Position numbers and translations under genes: made by a program
The notes under the pieces: generated by a model
Databases searched by the model: none
Told to the model about the DNA's origin: nothing
Seen by the model: only the letters and a program-made list of their open reading frames with translations
Part shown: positions 7,948-19,506 of the stretch, in pieces
How positions within the stretch are numbered: position 1 is the first letter of the stretch
Layout: every line of letters starts with the position of its first letter
Assembly (NCBI GenBank): GCA_021324575.1
Contig: JAJPIW010000035.1
Coordinates: 1 to 64,000, forward strand
Reading direction: 5' to 3'
DNA: 64,000 nt
Source of the DNA: Intrasporangiaceae bacterium
GTDB taxonomy: Bacteria > Actinomycetota > Actinomycetes > Actinomycetales > Dermatophilaceae

Positions 7948-8870
7948 CACACCAGCTCCTCGGTCCAGGAGGGCGTCGGTCCGGAGAGGAAGTAGCGCGA
8001 GCGGATCGCGGCGGCCGAGGCCATGACCGCCCGCTGAACCCGCTGCATCTGCGCCGGCAGGTCGGCGATGATGTCCGGCGTAGCGCGGTACTCCAGAGTC
8101 GTCCGTATGCCGCCGAGCTGGCGGCGGGCCTCGTCCGAGACGCCGATCCGTTGGGACTCCGGCGAGAGCGCGGACAGCCGGCTCTCGGCCTCGGACAGCG
8201 CGAAGACGACCGACCTCGGGAACTCCCGGTCGAGGACGAGGAAGGTCGCGGCCAGCTCGTCGGTGTAGAGCCCGCGCTGGCTGCGCATGAAGGACTGGGT
8301 GGCGCCGCAGCTGGACAGCACCGCCGACCACGGTGGTCCACCGTGCCGCAGACCGCCGGTCGCGACGAGTCGAGCCGTCATGTCGGCCCGCTCGAGCGAC
8401 CGGCCCAGGACGAGGAAGTCCCAGGCGTCGTCGTGGCTCATCGTCGAGTCGGCCACGCCGGCGACGAGTGCGGCTCGCTCGCGGACCCAGGACAGGTGCC
8501 GCTCGGTCACCGTCTGGCGGCCCAGACCGTTCCAGCGGTGCCACGTCGTGTTGATGGCCTCCCACAGCTCGGTCGAGAGGGTCTCCCGGGCGCGGCGCGC
8601 GTTCTCGCGGGCGGCCAGCCAGGAGCCGTTGATCGAGCTCTGGTTCTCGTCGCCGAAGACGAGCTGTCGCCCCACCTCGGCGAAGGTCACCTCGTCGTTG
8701 CTCGGCAGCCCCATGATCACCGAGAGGACCTGCCGCGAGGCACGCGCCTCATCGGTTCCAGGGTCCTCCAGCAGCTGCAGCCGCAGCACGTCGACGATCC
8801 GAGCCGTCCCGTCCGCGCGCTCGACGTAGCGGCCGATCCAGAACAGCGACTCGGCGATCCGGCTCAGCAT
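7947..8870 (-). CDS. alpha-E domain protein (DUF403)
   Basis: This 307-aa all-helical protein begins MLSRIAESLFWIGRYVERAD, the signature of the alpha-E family. No enzymatic residues are known; the family is almost always encoded with a circularly permuted ATP-grasp protein and a transglutaminase. It overlaps the ATP-grasp gene by 7 bp and the transglutaminase gene by 1 bp, so the three are probably made together. Confidence 0.92.
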   Translation of the reverse strand: MLSRIAESLFWIGRYVERADGTARIVDVLRLQLLEDPGTDEARASRQVLSVIMGLPSNDEVTFAEVGRQLVFGDENQSSINGSWLAARENARRARETLSTELWEAINTTWHRWNGLGRQTVTERHLSWVRERAALVAGVADSTMSHDDAWDFLVLGRSLERADMTARLVATGGLRHGGPPWSAVLSSCGATQSFMRSQRGLYTDELAATFLVLDREFPRSVVFALSEAESRLSALSPESQRIGVSDEARRQLGGIRTTLEYRATPDIIADLPAQMQRVQRAVMASAAAIRSRYFLSGPTPSWTEELV

Positions 8871-10525
8871 CGGCGCGCCACCCGTCGCTCCTTCTCGTGG
8901 TGTTGTTGTCTCTGTTGCTGCTGCTGTTGTTGCTGTTGTTCCTGCTGGGCACTGCCGCTCATGGCGTCCTCGCGAGAGGTCGTGGGGGCGCTCATGACGA
9001 CGACCTCACGGGTGTCGGTCGCCTCGTCCCGCGGCACGAACGGCCCACGGTCGCCCTTGCGAGCGATCACCCAGGTGTCCTTGGAGCCGCCGCCCTGGCT
9101 GGAGTTGACGACGAGCTCGCCCTCGGGCAGGGCCACCCGGGTCAGGGCCCCGGGCAGGACCCGGATCCGGTCGCCGTCGTTGACCGCGAACGGACGCAGG
9201 TCGACGTGCCGGGGCCGGAGCGCCCCGTTGATGAAGGTGGGCACCGTCGACAGCTGGACCACGGGTTGGGCGATCCAGCCTCGGGGGTCGTCGGTGAGGG
9301 TCCGGCGGAGCCGGTCGAGGGTCTCGCCGCTCGCCCGAGGGCCGATGACCAAGCCCTTGCCGCCCGAGCCGTCGACCGGCTTGACCACCATCTCGTCGAG
9401 CCGACCGAGCACCGTCCTCAGCGCCTCGGGCTCGTTGCACCGGTAGGTGTCGACGTTGGGCAGGATCGGGTCCTCCCCGAGATAGAACCGGATGAGGTCC
9501 GGCAGGTAGGAGTAGATGAGCTTGTCGTCGGCGACACCGTTGCCGATGGCGTTGGCCAGGCTGACTCGACCCGCCCGTAACGAGGACACCAGCCCGGCGA
9601 CACCGAGCATCGAGTCACCCCGGAAGTGGACGGGATCGAGGAAGTCGTCGTCGATCCGGCGGTAGATGACGTCGACCTGCTGCTCGCCCTGGGTGGTCCG
9701 CATCCGGACCTGTCCACCACTGCACACCAGGTCGCGTCCCTCGACGAGCTCGACACCCATCGTCCGGGCCAGGAGGGCATGCTCGAAGTAGGCACTGTTG
9801 TAGACGCCGGGCGTCAGGACGACGACGGTCGGGTCGCTCGTCCCGTCGGGTGCGGCCGCTCGCAGCGCCTTGAGGAGCATCCGCGGGTAGTCGTTCACGG
9901 GGCGGATCCGCATGGTGGAGAACGCCTCTGGGAACACGTTGGCCATGGCACGGCGGTTGGCGACGACATAGCTGACCCCGCTCGGGACCCGCACGTTGTC
10001 TTCCAGGACGCGGAAAGTACCTTCCTCGTCACGGATCAGGTCGACCCCGGCGACGTGCACTCGCACACCGTTGGCGGGGCGGATACCCATGACCGCGCGG
10101 TGGTAGTGGCTCGAGGAGGCGATCAGCTGCCACGGGATGACTCCCTCGTGGACCGACCGCGGGATCTCGCCCTCGCGGGAGTAGATGTCGTCCAGGAACG
10201 CCTCGAGGGCGGCGACCCGCTGGACGACGCCGGTCTCGATCGTTGCCCACTCGTCGGCGGAGAGGACGCGGGGGACGACGTCGAGCGGGAAGGGTCGCTC
10301 CTCCCCCGCATGGTCGAAGGTCACCCCCTGGTCGAGGTAGTTGCGCGCCAGCACGTCGGCCCGCTCGCGCATCGCCGTAGACGACATCGACCGCAGCGTG
10401 TGGTGGACCGGTTTGTAGGGCGCCCGAGCCACACCCGGCGCCGCCAGCATCTCGTCCCAGGCCGCGCCCCTGCCGATGTAGTCATCGAAGAGGGACGTCG
10501 CAGTGTCCTCGCTCACAGTGGGCAC
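8864..10525 (-). CDS. circularly permuted type 2 ATP-grasp protein with polyglutamine tail
   Basis: This 553-aa protein belongs to the DUF404/DUF407 ATP-grasp family, predicted to ligate amino acids or peptides using ATP. Recognisable blocks are VLEDNVRVPSGVSYV, DVIYRRIDDDFLDP, the glycine-rich loop VVKPVDGSGGKG and LRPFAVNDG. The last 30 or so residues differ from the family core: a glutamine run followed by HH and basic residues, encoded by CAG/CAA repeats. Start ATG 10525 gives the expected N-terminus. The gene lies 30 bp downstream of ribA on the same strand, so it may belong to the larger minus-strand operon. Confidence 0.9.
   Translation of the reverse strand: MPTVSEDTATSLFDDYIGRGAAWDEMLAAPGVARAPYKPVHHTLRSMSSTAMRERADVLARNYLDQGVTFDHAGEERPFPLDVVPRVLSADEWATIETGVVQRVAALEAFLDDIYSREGEIPRSVHEGVIPWQLIASSSHYHRAVMGIRPANGVRVHVAGVDLIRDEEGTFRVLEDNVRVPSGVSYVVANRRAMANVFPEAFSTMRIRPVNDYPRMLLKALRAAAPDGTSDPTVVVLTPGVYNSAYFEHALLARTMGVELVEGRDLVCSGGQVRMRTTQGEQQVDVIYRRIDDDFLDPVHFRGDSMLGVAGLVSSLRAGRVSLANAIGNGVADDKLIYSYLPDLIRFYLGEDPILPNVDTYRCNEPEALRTVLGRLDEMVVKPVDGSGGKGLVIGPRASGETLDRLRRTLTDDPRGWIAQPVVQLSTVPTFINGALRPRHVDLRPFAVNDGDRIRVLPGALTRVALPEGELVVNSSQGGGSKDTWVIARKGDRGPFVPRDEATDTREVVVMSAPTTSREDAMSGSAQQEQQQQQQQQQRQQHHEKERRVARRC
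8901..8947 (-). repeat. CAG/CAA trinucleotide tract encoding a polyglutamine tail
   Basis: The + strand here is a run of mostly TTG and CTG triplets, read on the minus strand as CAA and CAG. It encodes about 15 glutamines, broken by one glutamate and one arginine, at the C-terminus of the ATP-grasp protein. Mixed CAG/CAA codons suggest the tract is maintained rather than freshly expanded, though such tracts can slip. Confidence 0.85.
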
Positions 10526-10555: not shown

Positions 10556-11251
10556 CTACATGTCACGGGGGTGTTTCCGGGCGTATGCCGGGTGCCTCGC
10601 CTCCTCCACCGGGAGGGTCAGGTCGTGTCCGCCGCGAGCGGCCTTGGTCTGCAGGTAGGTCACGTTGGTGGGCGACACGTGGACGGCCGTCGGAACCCGG
10701 CGAGCCACGACGACGCCCCGAGCGGCAAGCTGTCGAGCCTTGTCGGGGTTGTTGCTCAGCAGCACGATGCGCGGGGCACCGAGGGCGTGCAGCATCTGGG
10801 CCGCGGCGGTGTAGTCGCGCGCATCTTTGGGGTACCCGAGGGCCTCGTTCGCGGCATACGTGTCCAGGCCCTCGTCCTGCAGTGCGTAGGCGTCGACCTT
10901 CCCGTAGAGCCCGATCCCCCTTCCCTCCTGCCGGAGGTAGAGGACATATCCTCCGACCTCGGCGATCCGGCCGACGGCTTCACGCAGCTGCGCGCCGCAG
11001 TCGCACCGGCCGCTGCCGAAGACGTCCCCGGTGAGGCACTCGCTGTGCAGCCGGACGAGCGGCTCGTGGTCGGTGGAGTGCAGGGCGGTCGTATGCCGCC
11101 AGCGAGCGCCGAAGCCGAGAGCCAGGTGCTCGCGACCATCGACCAACCCACGGAAGGTGTGCAACCGGGCGATGACCGTGTAGCCGTCGCCGAAACGGAG
11201 CGGCACGTCGACCCGTTGGCGAATCGTCGCGGCTGGCGGTTGTGGCGTCAT
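10556..11251 (-). CDS. ribA: GTP cyclohydrolase II
   Basis: This 231-aa enzyme opens GTP to 2,5-diamino-6-ribosylamino-4(3H)-pyrimidinone 5'-phosphate, formate and pyrophosphate. The zinc cysteines are C72, C83 and C85 in [17 protein letters not shown], followed by [10 protein letters not shown] and the [16 protein letters not shown] block. There is no DHBP synthase (RibB) domain. It overlaps the RibD-like gene by 4 bp (ATGA). Its neighbours are not ribE/ribH, so it may feed a special pathway rather than housekeeping riboflavin. Confidence 0.92.
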
Positions 11252-11952
11252 GTGTCACCTCTGGGTGCATCGTCGGTGCAACGGTCGGACAGGGCGATCC
11301 GGATCAGGGCGACGCCTCCGACGGTGGCGGCCTCGATGACCCGGGCCCGGTGGTCGGCCGTCCAGGGGTAGGCGCCGTCGTTGACGAAGCGGGGGCCCGC
11401 GCCGACGAAGAACGGCGCGACCGCGAGGTGCAGCTCGTCCGCCACGCCGGCGCCGAGGAACGCGGTCAGGATGCCCGAACCGCCCTCGACGAGCAGTCGT
11501 CGTATGCCGCGCCCGGCCAGCGTGTCGACGATCCCCGAGGGGCCGGTCGCGGGATCGAACGCCAGGACGTCGGCTCGCTCGCCGAGGCGCCGGGCCAGGG
11601 CACCGGCAACGGCGGTGGCCGCGAGGACGAGGCGCTCGCCCCGACCGGTCGTGAAGAACCGTGCCGCGGGGTCGAGGTCGCCGCTGGCCGTGACGGTGAC
11701 CCTGGTCGGGGACTCGCTCCGCCCGGCCGCGACCCGCGCCGCCCTCCGGCCGGTGTCGCGTACAAGGAGGCGCGGGTCGTCTGTGCGGACCGTCCCGGCG
11801 CCGACGAGGATCGCGTCGCAGGAGGCGCGGACCGCATCGGCCCGGTCGAGGTCGGTGGCGTCGGACAGGACGAGGCGGTGGGGTGAGTCGTCGTCGAGCC
11901 GGCCGTCGAGGGACATGGCGGCGCTGAGGATCGTGTACGGGACGGGTGTCAC
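11248..11952 (-). CDS. RibD C-terminal-domain reductase (pyrimidine/dihydrofolate reductase fold)
   Basis: This 234-aa stand-alone RibD C-terminal domain begins [21 protein letters not shown], with [16 protein letters not shown] in the second half. These enzymes reduce the ribosyl side chain of the RibA-derived pyrimidine with NADPH. The deaminase domain is missing. The GTG at 11952 overlaps the upstream flippase stop by 4 bp and its own stop overlaps ribA, so it is translationally coupled on both sides. Confidence 0.85.
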
Positions 11953-12905
11953 GCGTCACCGCCTGCGCGGGAGGGTTCGAGGCTGCGGGTCGATGCAACC
12001 GGCGCACACAACTCTCCAATTGCTCCGGTGTACACCGGAGCAATTGGAGAGTTGTGAACGGGACGAGCGCGGGACCCGTCGCCGCCCAGGCCGGCGCCGC
12101 GGAGGAAGGCCAAACCTGGGGACACGGCGAGGAGCGTGACGACACCGTGCACGACAGCAGCCGAGACCCCAGTGGCGGCGCCCAGGCCTGCGGCCGCGAA
12201 CGCCCAGGCCGCGACCCCCTCGCGCGGACCCCAGCCGGCGAGGTTGAGGGGCAACGCCCCACCTGCGAGGACGAGCAGGGCCAGCGGGATGAGTGTGCTC
12301 ACGGGTGCCTGTGCGCCCACCGAGCGGGCGGCGACGACGAAGGTCAGGGCGTGAGCGACCGCCACGACGAGCGAGGACAGGACGATCCCCGGCGCCCGCG
12401 CGAGCAGGACGAGCAGCGCCAGGAGGCAACCGCCGGCCGCCCACGGGGCGACCCGCCCCAGCCCAGCCGGCACGAGGGCGGGTGCGCTGGCGACGGCGGC
12501 ACCCGTCAGCAGCAGGGCAACGGACTGACCGAGCACGCGATCCGCCACTACCGTGCGCCCGGCCAGCCCCAGGTGCGACGCAGAGCGGCCGTGACGCACG
12601 GCCCGGTCCACGTCGCCGATCACCCCGAACGGAAGAGTCGCGTTGAGCAGCTGCGACCGGTAGTAGGCCCGTACGGCATCGACCACCCGCAGGTCGAGTC
12701 CGGCCCGCCGCGCGAGCAGGGTCCAGCGCCAGGCCGATGCGACAGTGGCGACAAGGGTGCAGCCGAGGGCGACGGCGACGGTCCGCAGGTCGACGGCGGC
12801 CAGCGCCGCCAGGAGGGTCCGGGGCCCGACCCACCACAGCGCGACCACGAGAACGAGCGCGCCCACGAGCGCGCGCCCGATACGCCATCCCGCGCGTCCA
12901 GCCAT
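11949..12905 (-). CDS. flippase-like integral membrane protein (lysylphosphatidylglycerol synthase TM-type)
   Basis: This 318-aa protein has about eight hydrophobic segments and the family motif SQLLNATLPFGVIGDVDRAVR, with PLNLAGWGPREGVAAWAF towards the C-terminus. Relatives move or modify lipid-linked substrates. The ATG at 12905 follows AGGAGG by 4 nt. The last 35 or so codons run through a 50-bp perfect palindrome and end in a GTGA overlap with the RibD-like gene. The tail therefore looks as if the palindrome was inserted into, or grew within, the gene end. Confidence 0.8.
   Translation of the reverse strand: MAGRAGWRIGRALVGALVLVVALWWVGPRTLLAALAAVDLRTVAVALGCTLVATVASAWRWTLLARRAGLDLRVVDAVRAYYRSQLLNATLPFGVIGDVDRAVRHGRSASHLGLAGRTVVADRVLGQSVALLLTGAAVASAPALVPAGLGRVAPWAAGGCLLALLVLLARAPGIVLSSLVVAVAHALTFVVAARSVGAQAPVSTLIPLALLVLAGGALPLNLAGWGPREGVAAWAFAAAGLGAATGVSAAVVHGVVTLLAVSPGLAFLRGAGLGGDGSRARPVHNSPIAPVYTGAIGELCAPVASTRSLEPSRAGGDA
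12007..12056. repeat. 50-bp perfect palindrome inside the 3' end of the flippase gene
   Basis: Arms 12007-12031 and 12032-12056 are perfect complements with no loop, centred on GTAC. The core CCAATTGCTCCGGTGT is nearly identical to the inner arm of the repeat at 4804-4876, so the two belong to one family. Unlike that copy, this one lies within a predicted open reading frame between co-directional genes. There it could attenuate transcription of the downstream RibD/RibA genes. Confidence 0.85.
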
Positions 12906-12982
12906 CCACCCTCCTGGGTCGGCGTCCGGCCAGACTCGGCCCGACACAGTTGACACGATGCCGCAGTGCCCTCGGTTCAGTT

Positions 12983-14056
12983 TCACACCCCTCCGAGGTC
13001 GGTCGACCCGACGGCGAGGGCTGACTCGACCCTGTCGACCGTGGATGACCACGGCGCCAGGGTCGCCCGCCGCACCCGGGCTGCCGCGCGGAGCCGAGTC
13101 CGGAGCTCGGGATCGGTGAGCCACCTTCTGATGGCATCAGCCAGGCCGGCGGCATCATCGGTCGCCGCGACGAGCCCCGGCACTCCCGTCCGCGTGGTCC
13201 CCAGCGCCTCGGCGACCCCACCCACCGGCGTCACGACCACGGGTATGCCGCGGGCCAGCGCCTCACCGACCACCATCCCGTACGTCTCGTGTCGCGACCC
13301 GACGACGAGCAGGTCGGTCGCGGCATACGACTCCCCCAGCTCCTCGGGAGGTTGCGGGCCGGCGAGTCGCACCCGGCCCCCCAGACCATTCCTGTCCACC
13401 TCAGTGATCAGTCGCTCGACGTATGCCGGGTCGACGGCCCGTGATCCGACGCACGTCCAGGTCCACTCCAGGTCGCGAATCCCGTTGAGAGCTGCGAGGA
13501 CTCGATCCTGCCCCTTGACAGGAGCCAGGGCGCCGACGGACAGCAGCCGGCCGCCGTCAGTGCCTCCCACTGCGGTGGGCGCAGGGTCGACGCCCGGCCT
13601 GGCGACGATGACCTGAGCGGGGTCGGCGGCGGTGTGCTGCAGGAGCCAGCCGCGGGTCCAGTCGCTCGTCACGATGACCCGCTGCGCCGAACTGACTGCA
13701 CGCAGCTCGGAGGCAACCAGCGCGGCGTCCGGCGCCACACCCACCCCGAGCGGGAGGTGGACCAGCAGCACGATCCCGAGCCGTCCAGCCTCGGCCGCCA
13801 GGAGTTCGCCGGCAGCCGATCCGACGAGCCCGTCGACGAGCACCACCGAGCCGGCCGCCAGCCCCGCCAGGACCGAACGCAGCGCAGTCAGACCGCCTGG
13901 GCCCGGTACTGGCCAGTCGCCCGGGATGTCGTGACGCACGACGCGCCTACCGCGTTCGGTGAGCTCGCGGCATACGCGCAGGTCATAGGCGTTGCCACCA
14001 CTGGGCCGGGCCGGGTCCTCGATCCCGGCCGGCACGACGAGGTGGACGGTCCTCAC
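12983..14056 (-). CDS. glycosyltransferase family 4 protein
   Basis: This 357-aa GT-B enzyme shows the GT4 features [20 protein letters not shown] (start of the nucleotide-sugar domain), a [21 protein letters not shown] acceptor/donor motif, and VTPVGGVAE. It transfers a sugar from an NDP-sugar to an unknown acceptor. The GTG at 14056 makes a 4-bp GTGA overlap with the PTPS-like gene, so it is preferred over the ATG at 14080. A 77-bp gap separates it from the flippase. Its neighbours suggest the acceptor could be a pterin or a lipid-linked intermediate. Confidence 0.85.
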
Positions 14057-14439
14057 CAGGGGCGGGTGTAGGTCGCCCACGCGCTCGGGTTCTCGCGCAG
14101 GGTCACCTCGACCTCGGTGACGCCGGCCGCGCCCGGTCCGAGGTCGCTGGCGGCGACCCGGTCGGCGACGACGCGCGCGAGCACCTCGGTCGTCGTGTTG
14201 AGTCCGGCGAGGCTGGGGTCGTCGTCGAGGTTGCGGTAGGACAGGGCACCGACGACCGCGTGGAGTACCTCGCTCGCCCGCCCGATGTCGATGACGATCC
14301 CGTCTCGGTCGAGGTCCGGGCGGCGGAAGGTCACGTCGACGACGTAGGTCGCGCCGTGCAGTCCCTGGGCCGGCCCGAAGACCTCGCCGCGCAGGCTGTG
14401 GGCCACCATCATGTGGTCGCGAACGGTCACGCTGAACAC
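14053..14439 (-). CDS. divergent 6-pyruvoyl-tetrahydropterin synthase/QueD-like protein
   Basis: This 128-aa T-fold protein aligns with PTPS/QueD by [11 protein letters not shown] near the N-terminus, [12 protein letters not shown] in the middle and [13 protein letters not shown] at the C-terminus. The usual HGH zinc pair is reduced to HGA, and the catalytic Cys four residues before it is Ala. Zinc binding or chemistry is therefore probably altered. The conserved Glu near the C-terminus (RENP) remains and would bind a pterin ring. It sits between a dehydrogenase (3-bp gap) and a glycosyltransferase (4-bp overlap). Confidence 0.8.
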
Positions 14440-14442
14440 CGG

Positions 14443-15471
14443 TCAGCCTCCCTCTGGGTAGGTGATGACGTGGCAGATCGCGGGCTGTTCACCGCTCGCG
14501 AGCCGGGGCATCAGGTCGGGCAGCTCGTCGAACGGGGTGGTCCCGGTGAGGAGCACGTCGTATGCCGGATCCTCCAGCAGCCGCAGCGCGAGGGCCAGCC
14601 GGTCGGTCGTCGAGCGGCGGCTGGCCCGGGCCGGCCCGACCCGGCCGACCTGGCTGGAGCGGAGGGTGAGCCGCCTGGAGTGGAACGCCCCGCCGAGCTG
14701 CACGGTGACCTCGCGACGGCCGTACCAGCTGAGGTCGACGACGACACCTTCGACGCCGAGCAGGTCCAGGGAGGTCTGCAGGCCCGCTCCGGTGGCACTG
14801 GCGTGGATGACGAGGTCGAGGTCTCCGCCCGTTGCCGCGGCGGCCTCGGCCGGGGCGGCGAACCTGACGCCGAGCGCGTCGGACTCGCTGTGCCGCAACG
14901 GGTTCGCGTCGACGAGGGTGACGTCGACGCCGGGGATTCCGGCGAGGAGCCGGGCTGCACACAGCCCGACCATCCCACCACCGACGACGGCCACTCGGTC
15001 GCCGACGAGCGGTCCGGCGTCCCAGAGCGCGTTGACGGCGGTCTCGAGCGTTCCGGCGAGAACCGCGCGGTGGTCGGGTACGCCATCGGGAATCGGGGTC
15101 ACGGCCGCGGCGGGGACGACGTACCGGGTCTGGTGCGGGTGCAGGCAGAAGACGCGACGCCCGACCAGACGGTCCGGGCCGACTTCGGCGACGCCGACGC
15201 TCAGGTAGCCGGAGCTGACCGGACCGGGGAGGTCGCCCGCCTGGAACGGTCCGCGCATCGCGGCATACTCGCTCTCGGGGACACCGCCGGAGAAGACGAG
15301 CGTCTCGGTCCCCCGGCTCACCCCGGAGGCGACGGTCCGGACGCGGACCTCGTCCGGCCCCGGCTCCGGAAGGTCGACGGTCACGATCTCGCCGACCCCC
15401 GGCTCGCGCACCCGGAAGGCCCGCGCCGATCCCGCCGCCGACCCTGCCGCCAATCCTGTGGACTCGCTCAT
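14443..15471 (-). CDS. MDR-family dehydrogenase (BchC-like, no zinc motif)
   Basis: This 342-aa medium-chain dehydrogenase/reductase has the Rossmann motif VAVVGGGMVGLCAARLLAG. Its catalytic region reads GVSRGTETLVFSGG, with no GHE zinc motif. It resembles the BchC-like branch often annotated as zinc-binding alcohol dehydrogenase. The ATG at 15471 has GAGGGAG upstream and leaves a 59-bp divergent promoter region; an in-frame ATG at 15507 is the alternative. It is probably the first gene of the minus-strand pterin/glycosyl operon. Confidence 0.78.
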   Translation of the reverse strand: MSESTGLAAGSAAGSARAFRVREPGVGEIVTVDLPEPGPDEVRVRTVASGVSRGTETLVFSGGVPESEYAAMRGPFQAGDLPGPVSSGYLSVGVAEVGPDRLVGRRVFCLHPHQTRYVVPAAAVTPIPDGVPDHRAVLAGTLETAVNALWDAGPLVGDRVAVVGGGMVGLCAARLLAGIPGVDVTLVDANPLRHSESDALGVRFAAPAEAAAATGGDLDLVIHASATGAGLQTSLDLLGVEGVVVDLSWYGRREVTVQLGGAFHSRRLTLRSSQVGRVGPARASRRSTTDRLALALRLLEDPAYDVLLTGTTPFDELPDLMPRLASGEQPAICHVITYPEGG

Positions 15472-15530
15472 GAACCCGGCCGCTCCCTCACTCGTGAACC
15501 ATGGCATACGACAACGACCACGGAGGTGTG

Positions 15531-17684
15531 ATGCGTTCGGTTCACCGCGGTGTGGTCGGACGCGCCCTCGACCCGCTGGGCGGTCGGCTCGGCCCGGCCA
15601 ATGCCGTCACCGTCGGGCGTTCGGTGCTCGTGGTCGTCGTGGCTGTGCTCGTGGTGGCCGCGCCGACCGCCCGCTGGCCGATCGCCGGCCTCGCCACCTT
15701 CGCCCTGGTCCTGGACGGGGTCGACGGCTGGGTCGCGCGACGGACCGGGACGGTCACGCCGTTCGGGGCGCGGTTCGACATGGAGGTCGATGCCGCCCTC
15801 GTGCTCATCCTCGCCGTCCACGTCGCCGGGCAGCTCGGCATCGGCTGGGTCCTGTTCATCGGCGCCGCGCGCTACCTGCTCGCGATCGGCGTCTGGGTCG
15901 CGCCGTGGCTGGGTAGCCCTGTCCCGCAACGCTACTGGCGCAAGGTCGTGGCCGTTCTCCAGGTCGTCACCCTGGTCGTCGTCGGCACCGGGGTGCTCCC
16001 ACGGACCGCCGACCGGCTCGCCCTCGCTGGAGCGGGGCTGGCGCTGGCGGTCTCGTTCGGCACCCAGGTGTGGGAGGTCCGGCGGTTCCGCCCCACTGCG
16101 TCGCGCCGCTCGGCGGTCCTCGCCTCCGGGGTGGCCGTCGTCCTCGCGTGGGCCGTCCTCGCCGCCCCGGACGACGTGCGACAGGGGCTGGCTTCGATGG
16201 CCCAGATCCCCCTCGAGGGGCTCGTCGCGGTCGGCCTGGTGGTGCTGACCGGGGGCCGGGTCCGCGCCGTCCTCGCCGTGCTCGGCGCCCTGCTGCTGGC
16301 GGTCGTCGCGGTGGTCAAGCTCGCCGACCTCGGCTTCCGCGTCTCCCTCGGTCGGGCCTTCGACCCACCGACGGACTTCTCGTATGCCGGGTCCGCCGCC
16401 GGTCTCGCACGCGACTCACTGGGCCCGTTCGTCGGCACCCTCGTCGTCGTGCTCGCGGTGGGGCTCACGCTCGGGCTCGTGGCGGGGGTGGGTTGGGCCG
16501 GATGGCGCACGGCCCGTCTGGTCGCCACCCGACCGGTCACCAGCACTCGGGTACTCGTCGTCGGCGGCGCCGCCTGGGCGGTCGCCGCGGCCGTCGGGTT
16601 GCAGACTCCGACGGGGACGCCGGTCGCCGGACGGGCTACGGCCGGGGTCGCCGCCGCGCACGTGACCCAGCTGAGAGCCGACCTCGCCGACCGGGGCCGG
16701 TTCGGCGCGCGGATCGCGGCTGACCCGCTCGCCGGCGCGACCGCGACGAGCGAGCTCGGTGCCCTGCGCGGCAAGGACGTCCTGGTCGTCTTCGTCGAGA
16801 GCTACGGCCGGTATGCCGTCGAGGACTCACCTGTCGCGCCCGGGGTGACCGACGTGCTCAGGCGGGGTACGGATGACCTGGCGGCCGCCGGGTTCTCGGC
16901 ACGGTCCGGCTTCCTCACCTCGCCCACGTACGGCGGCATCAGCTGGCTGGCCCACTCCACCCTCGAGTCCGGGCTCTGGGTGGACCGTCAGGGCCGCTAC
17001 GACCAGCTGCTCACGACCAGCCGGACGACCCTCACCGGGCTCTTCGCCCGCAGCGGTTGGCGCACCGTGTGCGACGTCCCCGCGAACCGGCACGACTGGC
17101 CACCCGCTTCCTCCTTCTACCACTGCGACCAGACCTACGACGCCCGCAACATCGGCTACCACGGGCCGGCCTACGGCTATCCCCCCGTGCCTGACGAGTT
17201 CACCCTTGCCGCCTTCGCGCGCGACGAGCTGCAGCCCGGCCACGCCCCCGTCATGGCCGAGATCGACCTCGTGACCAGCCACGCGCCCTGGTCCCCCATC
17301 CCGCCGCTCCTCCCCTGGGCCGACCTCGGGAACGGGACGTCGTATGCCGCGGCAGCTCGACCGCAGCCGCGGCCCGGCGGTGAGCGGGCGGCATACGGCG
17401 CAGGCATCGAGTACTCGCTGGCCAGTCTCGTCGACTTCGTGAAGAACGCGGGCGACCCGAACCTCGTCCTTGTCGTACTCGGTGACCACCAGCCGTATGC
17501 CGCGGTCTCGGGAACGCACGCCGGCCACGACGTGCCGATCTCGGTCATCGCCCATGACCCCGCCGTGCTGGCTGCCGTGAACGACTGGGGCTGGACTGCC
17601 GGCCTGCTCCCGGCAGCGGACGCGCCGGTGTGGCCGATGGACACCTTCCCCGGAAGATTCCTCACCGCATACCGAAACCCTTGA
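15531..17684 (+). CDS. CDP-alcohol phosphotransferase fused to a sulfatase/LTA-synthase-like domain
   Basis: This 717-aa membrane protein has two modules. Residues about 1-190 hold the CDP-alcohol phosphotransferase signature DxxDGxxAR...GxxxDxxxD (DGVDGWVARRTGTVTPFG, then FDMEVD). More membrane segments follow to about residue 380. Residues about 410-717 form an alkaline-phosphatase-superfamily domain with metal-site candidates VVFVESYGRY, TSPTYGG and VLGDHQPY. It could attach a phospho-alcohol to a lipid or transfer a phospho-headgroup outside the membrane. The ATG at 15531 follows GGAGG by 4 nt. It is divergent from the pterin/glycosyl operon and probably part of the same pathway. Confidence 0.85.
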   Translation: MRSVHRGVVGRALDPLGGRLGPANAVTVGRSVLVVVVAVLVVAAPTARWPIAGLATFALVLDGVDGWVARRTGTVTPFGARFDMEVDAALVLILAVHVAGQLGIGWVLFIGAARYLLAIGVWVAPWLGSPVPQRYWRKVVAVLQVVTLVVVGTGVLPRTADRLALAGAGLALAVSFGTQVWEVRRFRPTASRRSAVLASGVAVVLAWAVLAAPDDVRQGLASMAQIPLEGLVAVGLVVLTGGRVRAVLAVLGALLLAVVAVVKLADLGFRVSLGRAFDPPTDFSYAGSAAGLARDSLGPFVGTLVVVLAVGLTLGLVAGVGWAGWRTARLVATRPVTSTRVLVVGGAAWAVAAAVGLQTPTGTPVAGRATAGVAAAHVTQLRADLADRGRFGARIAADPLAGATATSELGALRGKDVLVVFVESYGRYAVEDSPVAPGVTDVLRRGTDDLAAAGFSARSGFLTSPTYGGISWLAHSTLESGLWVDRQGRYDQLLTTSRTTLTGLFARSGWRTVCDVPANRHDWPPASSFYHCDQTYDARNIGYHGPAYGYPPVPDEFTLAAFARDELQPGHAPVMAEIDLVTSHAPWSPIPPLLPWADLGNGTSYAAAARPQPRPGGERAAYGAGIEYSLASLVDFVKNAGDPNLVLVVLGDHQPYAAVSGTHAGHDVPISVIAHDPAVLAAVNDWGWTAGLLPAADAPVWPMDTFPGRFLTAYRNP

Positions 17685-18939: not shown

Positions 18940-19506
18940 TCAGGCGGCGTGACGGACCGCGTGGCGGAGATAGACCACGCCGTTGTCGAATCGTCGGTTG
19001 TCCAGCAGCTCGAGGTCGGCTCGTACGCCTCGAGGCAGCGCCGGCTTCCCACCGCCGACGAGGACCGGGCAGAGCAGCAGCACACACTCGTCGACCAGGC
19101 CGTGCCGGAAGGCCTCAGCCGCGATCCCGGCGCCCCCGATGCTCAGGTCCGAGCCGGAGGCCTCCTTGAGCCGTCGTACGGCCTCCGGCTCGAACTGCCG
19201 CTCGATCCTCGTGCGCGCGGTCGACACGTCGGTGAGCGAGGTGGAGTAGACGACCTTGTCGGTGTCACGCCAGATCCCGGCGTACTCGCGGACCACCGGG
19301 GGCTCGTTCGCCAACCAGTCGTCGCTCTCCCACACGCGCATCACCTCGTACATGCGCCGCCCGTAGAGCGACGTGCCGATGTGTCGCTCATGCTCGTTCC
19401 AGAACGCGTGCACGTCCTCGTCCGGCACGGACCAGTTGAACGAACCGGTCTCGTCCTCCAGGAAGCCGTCGAGAGAGATGTTGGCCGCGTAGATCAACTT
19501 ACCCAT
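18940..19506 (-). CDS. dihydrofolate reductase-family (RibD C-terminal-like) protein
   Basis: This 188-aa protein begins MGKLIYAANISLDGFLED and contains YGRRMYEVM, DKVVYSTSL and LSIGGAGIAAEAF, the pattern of the large actinobacterial YyaP/YwjB-like reductase family. It probably binds NADPH; the substrate is unknown. The ATG at 19506 follows GGAGGG by 4 nt. It is divergent from the unknown gene at 19645. It lies in the GTATGCC-poor stretch. Confidence 0.85.
   Translation of the reverse strand: MGKLIYAANISLDGFLEDETGSFNWSVPDEDVHAFWNEHERHIGTSLYGRRMYEVMRVWESDDWLANEPPVVREYAGIWRDTDKVVYSTSLTDVSTARTRIERQFEPEAVRRLKEASGSDLSIGGAGIAAEAFRHGLVDECVLLLCPVLVGGGKPALPRGVRADLELLDNRRFDNGVVYLRHAVRHAA

Follow-up and report, generated by a model that had tools for sequence, protein, structure and literature searches.

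We analysed a window of 64,000 nucleotides from an Intrasporangiaceae bacterium (contig JAJPIW010000035.1), in which seven genes at 10556-17684 encode a GTP cyclohydrolase II (GCH II), a RibD_C-type reductase, a flippase-like membrane protein, a GT4 glycosyltransferase, a PTPS homologue, a dehydrogenase, and a fusion of a CDP-alcohol phosphotransferase to an LtaS-like domain. Comparison across Actinomycetota leaves us in little doubt that this gene set is a real and old functional unit. Whether the window cluster is one copy of a conserved unit, of the type of Streptomyces coelicolor SCO6650, that diverts GTP to a specialised small molecule by the stepwise scheme given below is, in our view, evenly balanced. 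Gene linkage, fusions, residue losses, and an exchange between a GCH II tyrosine and a creatininase-family gene are observed, and from them we infer every chemical step. The new, testable piece is the entry intermediate together with the GCH II/creatininase exchange. No description of this cluster was found in literature searches, which were limited to open-licence papers.

An earlier note on this DNA proposed that these genes belong together, and we ran the neighbourhood comparison that bears on it, mostly with the PTPS-like protein as query. Within the order it matched 24 of 149 genomes, and 20 of the 24 loci were widened. The class gave 58 places in 57 of 394 genomes (40 widened, most of the others being already among the loci), and the phylum gave 80 matches in 77 of 396 genomes, weak QueD-like matches included, of which the best 30 were kept as loci, 28 of them new. 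A public genome collection held at least 581 relatives; the 80 nearest to the window were kept as named loci and come mostly from Micromonospora, Actinoplanes, Streptomyces, Pseudonocardia, Amycolatopsis, Actinomadura, and kin. A dehydrogenase query gave matches in 38 of 296 genomes of the phylum. Throughout, a gene is called absent if the fetched locus, about 6-10 kb on each side or less at contig ends, does not contain it, and the profiles that scored the loci were built partly from those same loci.

The dehydrogenase, PTPS, and GT4 genes occur together in 24/24 same-order loci, and GT4 is present in 165 of the 167 wide loci that carry both dehydrogenase and PTPS (core loci). This trio is the best-conserved part of the cluster. 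The dehydrogenase gene lies directly upstream of the PTPS gene on the same strand in 20/20 wide loci of the order, 38/40 of the class, 17/20 of the phylum, 74/80 named loci, and 13/13 PTPS-bearing loci of a further set. The three phylum misses, L090-L092, have canonical PTPS residues, and the two class misses are L241 and L244. Among the six named-locus misses, no dehydrogenase was found in L122, L138, L159, and L166, and it lies further off or inverted in L136 and L169. In the short phylum loci, 26 of the best 28 new ones have the dehydrogenase; the exceptions are L052, at a contig end, and L071, whose different PTPS has canonical residues and is the same gene as that of L091. Across the loci compared the genes do not vary independently, and the proposal that they form one unit holds. 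The dehydrogenase was ruled out as a sole marker of the cluster, as L213 and L218 carry distant dehydrogenases without PTPS.

The remaining genes are found in the 167 core loci as follows: flippase-like 125, CDP-alcohol transferase 122, methyltransferase 119, GCH II 114, RibD_C 111, creatininase 56, and LtaS-like 42. Eight hits in these loci are weak, namely three to RibD_C (L181, L244, and L245), four to methyltransferase, and one to GT4 (L181). The lipid-headgroup enzymes, which the earlier note counted as part of the set, are thus present but less constant.

The trio persists down to 31-37% dehydrogenase identity. At that distance, in families f25, f31, and f36, a GCH II-RibD_C pair lies divergent to dehydrogenase-PTPS-GT4, with GCH II in eight and RibD_C in all nine of the PTPS-bearing loci. 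Family f34 has RibD_C-dehydrogenase-PTPS-GT4 in one direction, and a folB-family gene, identified as FolB in L080, is divergent to the cluster in 10/10 first-fetched wide loci. In these loci (L080-L089) an acyltransferase gene is also divergent to the cluster, and the folB neighbour is a hint of a pterin link. The smallest set, in Streptomyces sp. CBMA152 (L168), consists of three genes, dehydrogenase-PTPS-RibD_C.

The cluster might instead modify a pterin made by ordinary GTP cyclohydrolase I (GCH I) into a pterin glycoside, with GCH II, RibD_C, and creatininase as a separate flavin-precursor module. GCH I is indeed found in all 26 other cluster carriers tested, the f34 clusters adjoin folB, and GCH II is not in every locus. 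Nevertheless we consider this distinctly unlikely: the GCH II-RibD_C pair is found again next to the trio in f25, f31, and f36, which are very distant families, both genes are frequent in core loci (three of the RibD_C hits being weak), L168 keeps RibD_C adjoining dehydrogenase-PTPS, and the PTPS-like protein has lost the triad with which PTPS acts on the product of GCH I.

The alignment of the window PTPS-like protein with PDB 3d7j, SCO6650 from S. coelicolor, spans 126 residues (E 2.7e-47). In a sequence search 3d7j is its only PDB relative at E 0.001, and the two share an HGA motif in place of HGH. It lacks the catalytic Cys, the Asp-His pair, and the third zinc His, and keeps the C-terminal Glu; with the relation to 3d7j and the HGA motif, this makes it an SCO6650-type PTPS homologue. 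Among 148 window-type rows of the alignment, the Cys is Ala in every row, the third zinc His is Ala in 146 and Val in 2, the Asp is missing from 143 rows and the His of the pair from 146, and the C-terminal Glu is present in all. The loss is graded, from three canonical control rows that keep all PTPS residues, through deep and f34 rows, to the window type. Nine deep rows keep the three zinc His with Glu in place of Cys, 14 f34 rows keep them with Ala in place of Cys, and none of either group (0/9 and 0/14) has the His of the Asp-His pair. The C-terminal Glu, also present in the controls, is kept in 171/171 non-canonical rows, including three solitary copies. In PTPS this residue holds the 2-amino-4-oxo ring. 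Because the catalytic residues are lost and the Glu is kept, the PTPS-like protein probably still binds such a ring, and PTPS chemistry is unlikely. Canonical PTPS/QueD activity was rejected on the residues of the 148 window-type rows compared with the three controls. SCO6650 itself reportedly lacks zinc, the triad, and PTPS activity.

The window GCH II has the features of its family. Its fold, its zinc cysteines (E. coli RibA C54, C65, and C67; motif HSEC...CDC), and a Tyr at the position of RibA Tyr105 are those of GCH II. In RibA, the zinc cysteines and Tyr105 matter for GCH II activity. In other clusters, this Tyr exchanges with a gene of the creatininase family. A creatininase-family gene is in 0/62 loci with a Tyr-type GCH II, a count that includes L092, where riboflavin genes adjoin a canonical PTPS, and L122, whose cluster is truncated at a contig end. 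In the other 54 rows the position is taken by Met (36), His (10), Leu (5), or Gln (3), and the creatininase gene is found in 53 of these loci, with a lowest score of 284 bits. The exception, L242, has a 66%-identical creatininase orthologue about 13 kb from its PTPS, beyond the fetched locus. Every Tyr row carries the zinc motif CDC, and every non-Tyr row carries CEC. Whole-genome searches of 23 Tyr-type carriers, among them the window genome, found no creatininase orthologue: 14 gave no match and nine only distant relatives (at most 43% identity and 95 bits), and the orthologue scores 261-445 bits in three genomes of the non-Tyr clade. A creatininase hidden elsewhere in the genome is rejected for these 23 Tyr-type carriers.

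Mapped onto a tree built from dehydrogenase, GT4, and flippase, the swap takes two changes, in the simplest case a single gain plus a reversal at L158. This locus, from a Pseudonocardia metagenome-assembled genome (MAG) inside the non-Tyr clade, has Tyr, a RibD_C-fused GCH II, and no creatininase. The tree holds 100 of the 114 core loci with GCH II; L088 was dropped for its long branch and the rest have no flippase or GT4 hit. An earlier tree held 75 of 77 rows, L092 and L122 being dropped. The swap therefore amounts to two independent events, not 116, and a Fisher p of 1.3e-32 is unusable; independent pairs give 2/2, p 0.5.

SCO6655, which we take to be the S. coelicolor copy of the cluster GCH II, reportedly retains the formyl group and has Met in place of Tyr. 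The work on it is cited in PMC3509567 for altered GCH II activity of three Streptomyces genes. The creatininase of the sister clade belongs to PF02633 (2.3e-63) and reaches no NCBIfam equivalog at cut-off. In PMC9478397, the creatininase-family protein BrbF deformylates a formylamino pyrimidine to 2,5-diamino-6-ribosylamino-4(3H)-pyrimidinone 5'-phosphate (DARPP). The simplest reading of these sequences is that two routes would lead to one intermediate, DARPP, either directly or via a formylated intermediate and a deformylase. We think it quite probable that DARPP is the entry intermediate of the pathway.

The next candidate step comes from gene fusions. Fusion was tested in 16 loci in which GCH II and RibD_C are close, on the same strand, and in frame, and in all 16, every one of Tyr type, they form one open frame, an arrangement that speaks for the GCH II product as the substrate of RibD_C. 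The closest PDB sequence to the cluster RibD_C is 5xux, presumably archaeal Rib7, and it scores 107 bits with NCBIfam rib_reduct_arch against a cut-off of 186. It is similar to archaeal enzymes that carry out the reduction ahead of deamination, and Pfam shows no deaminase domain in it. In other fusions, GT4 and the methyltransferase are a single protein in L082, and the CDP-alcohol transferase and LtaS-like domains, fused in the window, are separate neighbouring genes in L073.

Since GCH II and RibD_C are riboflavin enzyme families, they could simply feed riboflavin as a spare supply, with the other genes as unrelated neighbours. We find this highly improbable. Pfam shows GCH II and RibD_C as the only riboflavin domains of the cluster, which is not a canonical riboflavin operon, and no deaminase domain in its seven proteins. 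No ribE, ribH, or folB family match was found among nine window proteins scanned, as the earlier note had it, the scan for these families covering those nine proteins and not the whole genome. Distant families of the phylum also keep the link to dehydrogenase-PTPS-GT4. Moreover, the window assembly (4.24 Mb) has a second GCH II on contig C72, with Tyr and a RibB part upstream, about 1.3 kb from another RibD_C protein. The window copy is thus neither the sole GCH II nor the sole riboflavin enzyme of this genome. GCH I is present in one copy. With a second GCH II, a RibD, and GCH I in the genome, the cluster is probably not a riboflavin or folate supply and looks additional to vitamin synthesis. 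GCH I in the window genome and all carriers tested also rules out the cluster as a GCH I replacement for folate. In all, seven RibD_C matches are found in this genome, and a second RibD_C-domain protein lies within the window at 18970-19500 (-), about 7 kb from the cluster gene. In two f34 genomes (G360, contig C73, and G173, contig C15) the folE match is split into two or three pieces within one frame; these frames, of 864 and 552 aa, look like they contain one or two inteins.

The five Pfam hits of the dehydrogenase are weak, with NAD_binding_8 alone just above cut-off and ADH_zinc_N below. The earlier note called it BchC-like; BchC is its best NCBIfam hit, but at 39.5 bits against a cut-off of 291 it is not assigned to that family. 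The AlphaFold model is confident (mean pLDDT 90), and alignments show none of the usual zinc-ligand motifs. Fold neighbours in the PDB include threonine, butanediol, and sorbitol dehydrogenases, enzymes that oxidise secondary alcohols.

The lipid-headgroup gene is the least constant part of the cluster. In the divergent fusion, a CDP-alcohol phosphotransferase domain leads into a long helical stretch, probably in the membrane, and then into an LtaS-like domain of the alkaline-phosphatase superfamily, which suggests headgroup transfer at the outer face. Pfam gives no separate hit for the C-terminal part (16101-17684). The fold predicted for it (mean pLDDT 77) best matches LtaS 4uoo, weakly (E 1.8e-7, query TM-score 0.35), and a stand-alone relative just passes Pfam Sulfatase PF00884. 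The sulfatase/LTA-like fusion of the earlier note is borne out in its CDP-alcohol transferase domain and fused frame, and the second domain is LtaS-like by a weak fold match. The best PDB relatives of GT4 by sequence are 3c4q/3c48.

From these parts we propose the following scheme. In the Tyr type, GCH II would open GTP to DARPP. In the sister clade (Streptomyces, Amycolatopsis, Actinomadura, and others), a formyl-retaining GCH II variant and a creatininase-family deformylase would reach the same compound. RibD_C would then reduce the ribosyl to a ribityl chain, and we lean towards a ribityl product. The predicted NAD(P)-dependent dehydrogenase may next oxidise a secondary hydroxyl of that chain. 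GCH I reaches a C2' ketone by Amadori rearrangement. If C2' is oxidised here, reduction plus oxidation would equal that Amadori step, and the ketone could close onto the 5-amino group. Closure would give a dihydroneopterin-type ring, with the degenerate T-fold binding the 2-amino-4-oxo ring via its Glu and templating the reaction. Such ring closure to a pterin is doubtful. GT4 would add a sugar, and other lineages probably methylate too. Finally, the flippase-like and CDP-alcohol transferase/LtaS-like proteins would move the product to the membrane or link it there. From the enzyme families, a glycosylated, membrane-linked end product has somewhat less than an even chance, and the glycosylated or membrane-anchored GTP-derived compound suggested by the earlier note is possible. 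Its GTP/pterin chemistry needs correcting: GCH II makes a diaminopyrimidine and no pterin, and the PTPS homologue has lost the known PTPS residues. The full combination is unlikely: a GCH I-independent redox route to pterin (RibD_C at C1', dehydrogenase at C2', degenerate PTPS fold), a new glycosylated membrane-linked pterin produced throughout Actinomycetota, and a "GCH III plus deformylase" feed in sister clusters. In that case the bacterial pair of the sister clusters would have evolved from GCH II and creatininase.

A product without the pterin ring has to be weighed here. A glycosylated ribityl-diaminopyrimidine could be turned by GT4 and the membrane proteins into a nucleoside-like glycolipid or an exported antibiotic, while the dehydrogenase and the PTPS-like protein modify the side chain or do no more than bind it. 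GCH II and RibD_C do lead to a pyrimidine rather than a pterin, the PTPS-like protein has lost its catalytic residues, and the CDP-alcohol transferase and flippase-like genes are common in core loci. SCO6655, which we take to be the cluster GCH II of S. coelicolor, is listed in PMC2853524 among genes with expression anticorrelated with modelled flux; according to that paper, most of these are upregulated in stationary phase and may contribute to making antibiotics. The T-fold Glu, kept in every non-canonical row, suggests instead that a 2-amino-4-oxo ring is handled, and the f34 clusters have their folB-family neighbour. We see a modest chance, well short of even, that this pyrimidine product, its side chain tailored or only bound, is the true one.

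Several points weigh against the proposed scheme. The Tyr/creatininase swap rests on only two tree changes. The creatininase is under the NCBIfam ArfB cut-off (36.6 against 180 bits) and nearer MftE, also below cut-off, and the activity of distant BrbF homologues is left open in PMC9478397. RibD_C is absent from the locus in 38 of the 54 non-Tyr loci, and among the 16 that have it L245 gives only an 18-bit hit; the reduction may be optional, supplied elsewhere, or off the path. Many zinc-free MDR enzymes reduce double bonds; the dehydrogenase lacks zinc ligands, and its fold neighbours include double-bond reductases. GCH II is missing from many loci (L029, L032-L034, L036, L037, and 13/14 of f34), where it may be located elsewhere. 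L138, L159, and L166 are solitary PTPS copies outside any such cluster. As GCH I is found in every carrier tested, folate needs no second pterin route. The neighbourhoods of the three solitary copies, all from Streptomyces, are alike among themselves, differ from the cluster, and give no functional clue.

Several known systems resemble the scheme in part. Met-type Streptomyces-like clusters have the creatininase, whereas the window has a Tyr-type GCH II and no creatininase neighbour; this comparison draws on Streptomyces-like clusters other than the S. coelicolor locus. BrbF of Sinorhizobium riboflavin synthesis shares its creatininase annotation and predicted reaction with the sister-cluster gene (PMC9478397). 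However, the sister-cluster protein is actinobacterial, adjoins a non-Tyr GCH II, and is likened to BrbF by family and reaction, not by sequence. For BrbF bacteria, PMC9478397 describes the matching GTP cyclohydrolase III (GCH III) as still undiscovered. Non-Tyr clusters with RibD_C seem to encode a two-step formation of DARPP and its reduction, as in the archaeal riboflavin route (GCH III, ArfB, and DARPP reductase), but they use a GCH II-family enzyme, their creatininase is below the ArfB cut-off, and the downstream genes are not riboflavin genes. Cyanobacteria make pterin glycosides with a UDP-glucose:tetrahydrobiopterin glucosyltransferase. The pairing of PTPS-type chemistry with a glycosyltransferase would be similar, but the window cluster has GCH II and not GCH I. 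For the C-terminal domain of the fusion, LtaS and phosphoglycerol transferases are the best, though weak, match by fold; this domain differs in being joined to a CDP-alcohol transferase and in its low frequency in core loci.

All seven genes named in the earlier note were confirmed by Pfam, NCBIfam, and fold search.

Table 1. The seven genes of the cluster in the window.
Feature	Coordinates	Strand	Evidence and remarks
GCH II, monofunctional	10556-11251	-	Pfam PF00925 GTP_cyclohydro2 1.9e-53; codon-based start maybe 11206
RibD_C-type reductase without deaminase domain	11248-11952	-	Pfam PF01872 RibD_C 1.7e-36
LPG_synthase_TM / flippase-like membrane protein	11949-13124	-	Pfam PF03706 3.3e-25; likely start 12866
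GT4 glycosyltransferase	12983-14080	-	Pfam PF00534/PF13692 3.2e-28
PTPS/QueD homologue, SCO6650 type	14053-14439	-	Pfam PF01242 PTPS 3.5e-25; PDB 3d7j
MDR-superfamily dehydrogenase, BchC-like	14443-15507	-	NCBIfam, alignments, AlphaFold model, PDB fold search; likely start 15411
CDP-alcohol phosphotransferase + LtaS-like fusion	15501-17684	+	Pfam PF01066 CDP-OH_P_transf, N-terminal part, 2.4e-15

Read along the minus strand, the six-gene block runs dehydrogenase, PTPS-like, GT4, flippase-like, RibD_C, and GCH II, and the fusion gene is divergent from it. The genes had been described as coupled by overlaps. This is so at three of the block's five junctions (GCH II/RibD_C 4 bp, RibD_C/flippase 4 bp, and GT4/PTPS 28 bp), but PTPS/dehydrogenase is a 3-bp gap, and the flippase/GT4 and dehydrogenase/CDP-alcohol transferase overlaps are seen only with the longest open reading frames and not with the codon-based starts. 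The window cluster has no methyltransferase, unlike many other lineages. Directly after it on the same strand lies a circularly permuted ATP-grasp protein (8864-10525, -), and no relative of it was labelled among 40 other loci compared. The cluster is also found in records titled Burkholderiaceae MAG, Xenophilus sp. E41, and alphaproteobacterial MAG (L142, L147, and L171), either by transfer beyond Actinomycetota or as misassigned contigs.

If true, the scheme would link the SCO6650 crystal structure (3d7j, listed as "Uncharacterized protein") to a defined and widespread pathway and name its entry intermediate. It would also point to a deformylase partner for formyl-retaining GCH II variants. 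Should the cluster end in a glycosylated pterin, this compound would represent a new class of actinobacterial cofactor or natural product, and ordinary strains of Streptomyces and Micromonospora could serve as its source.

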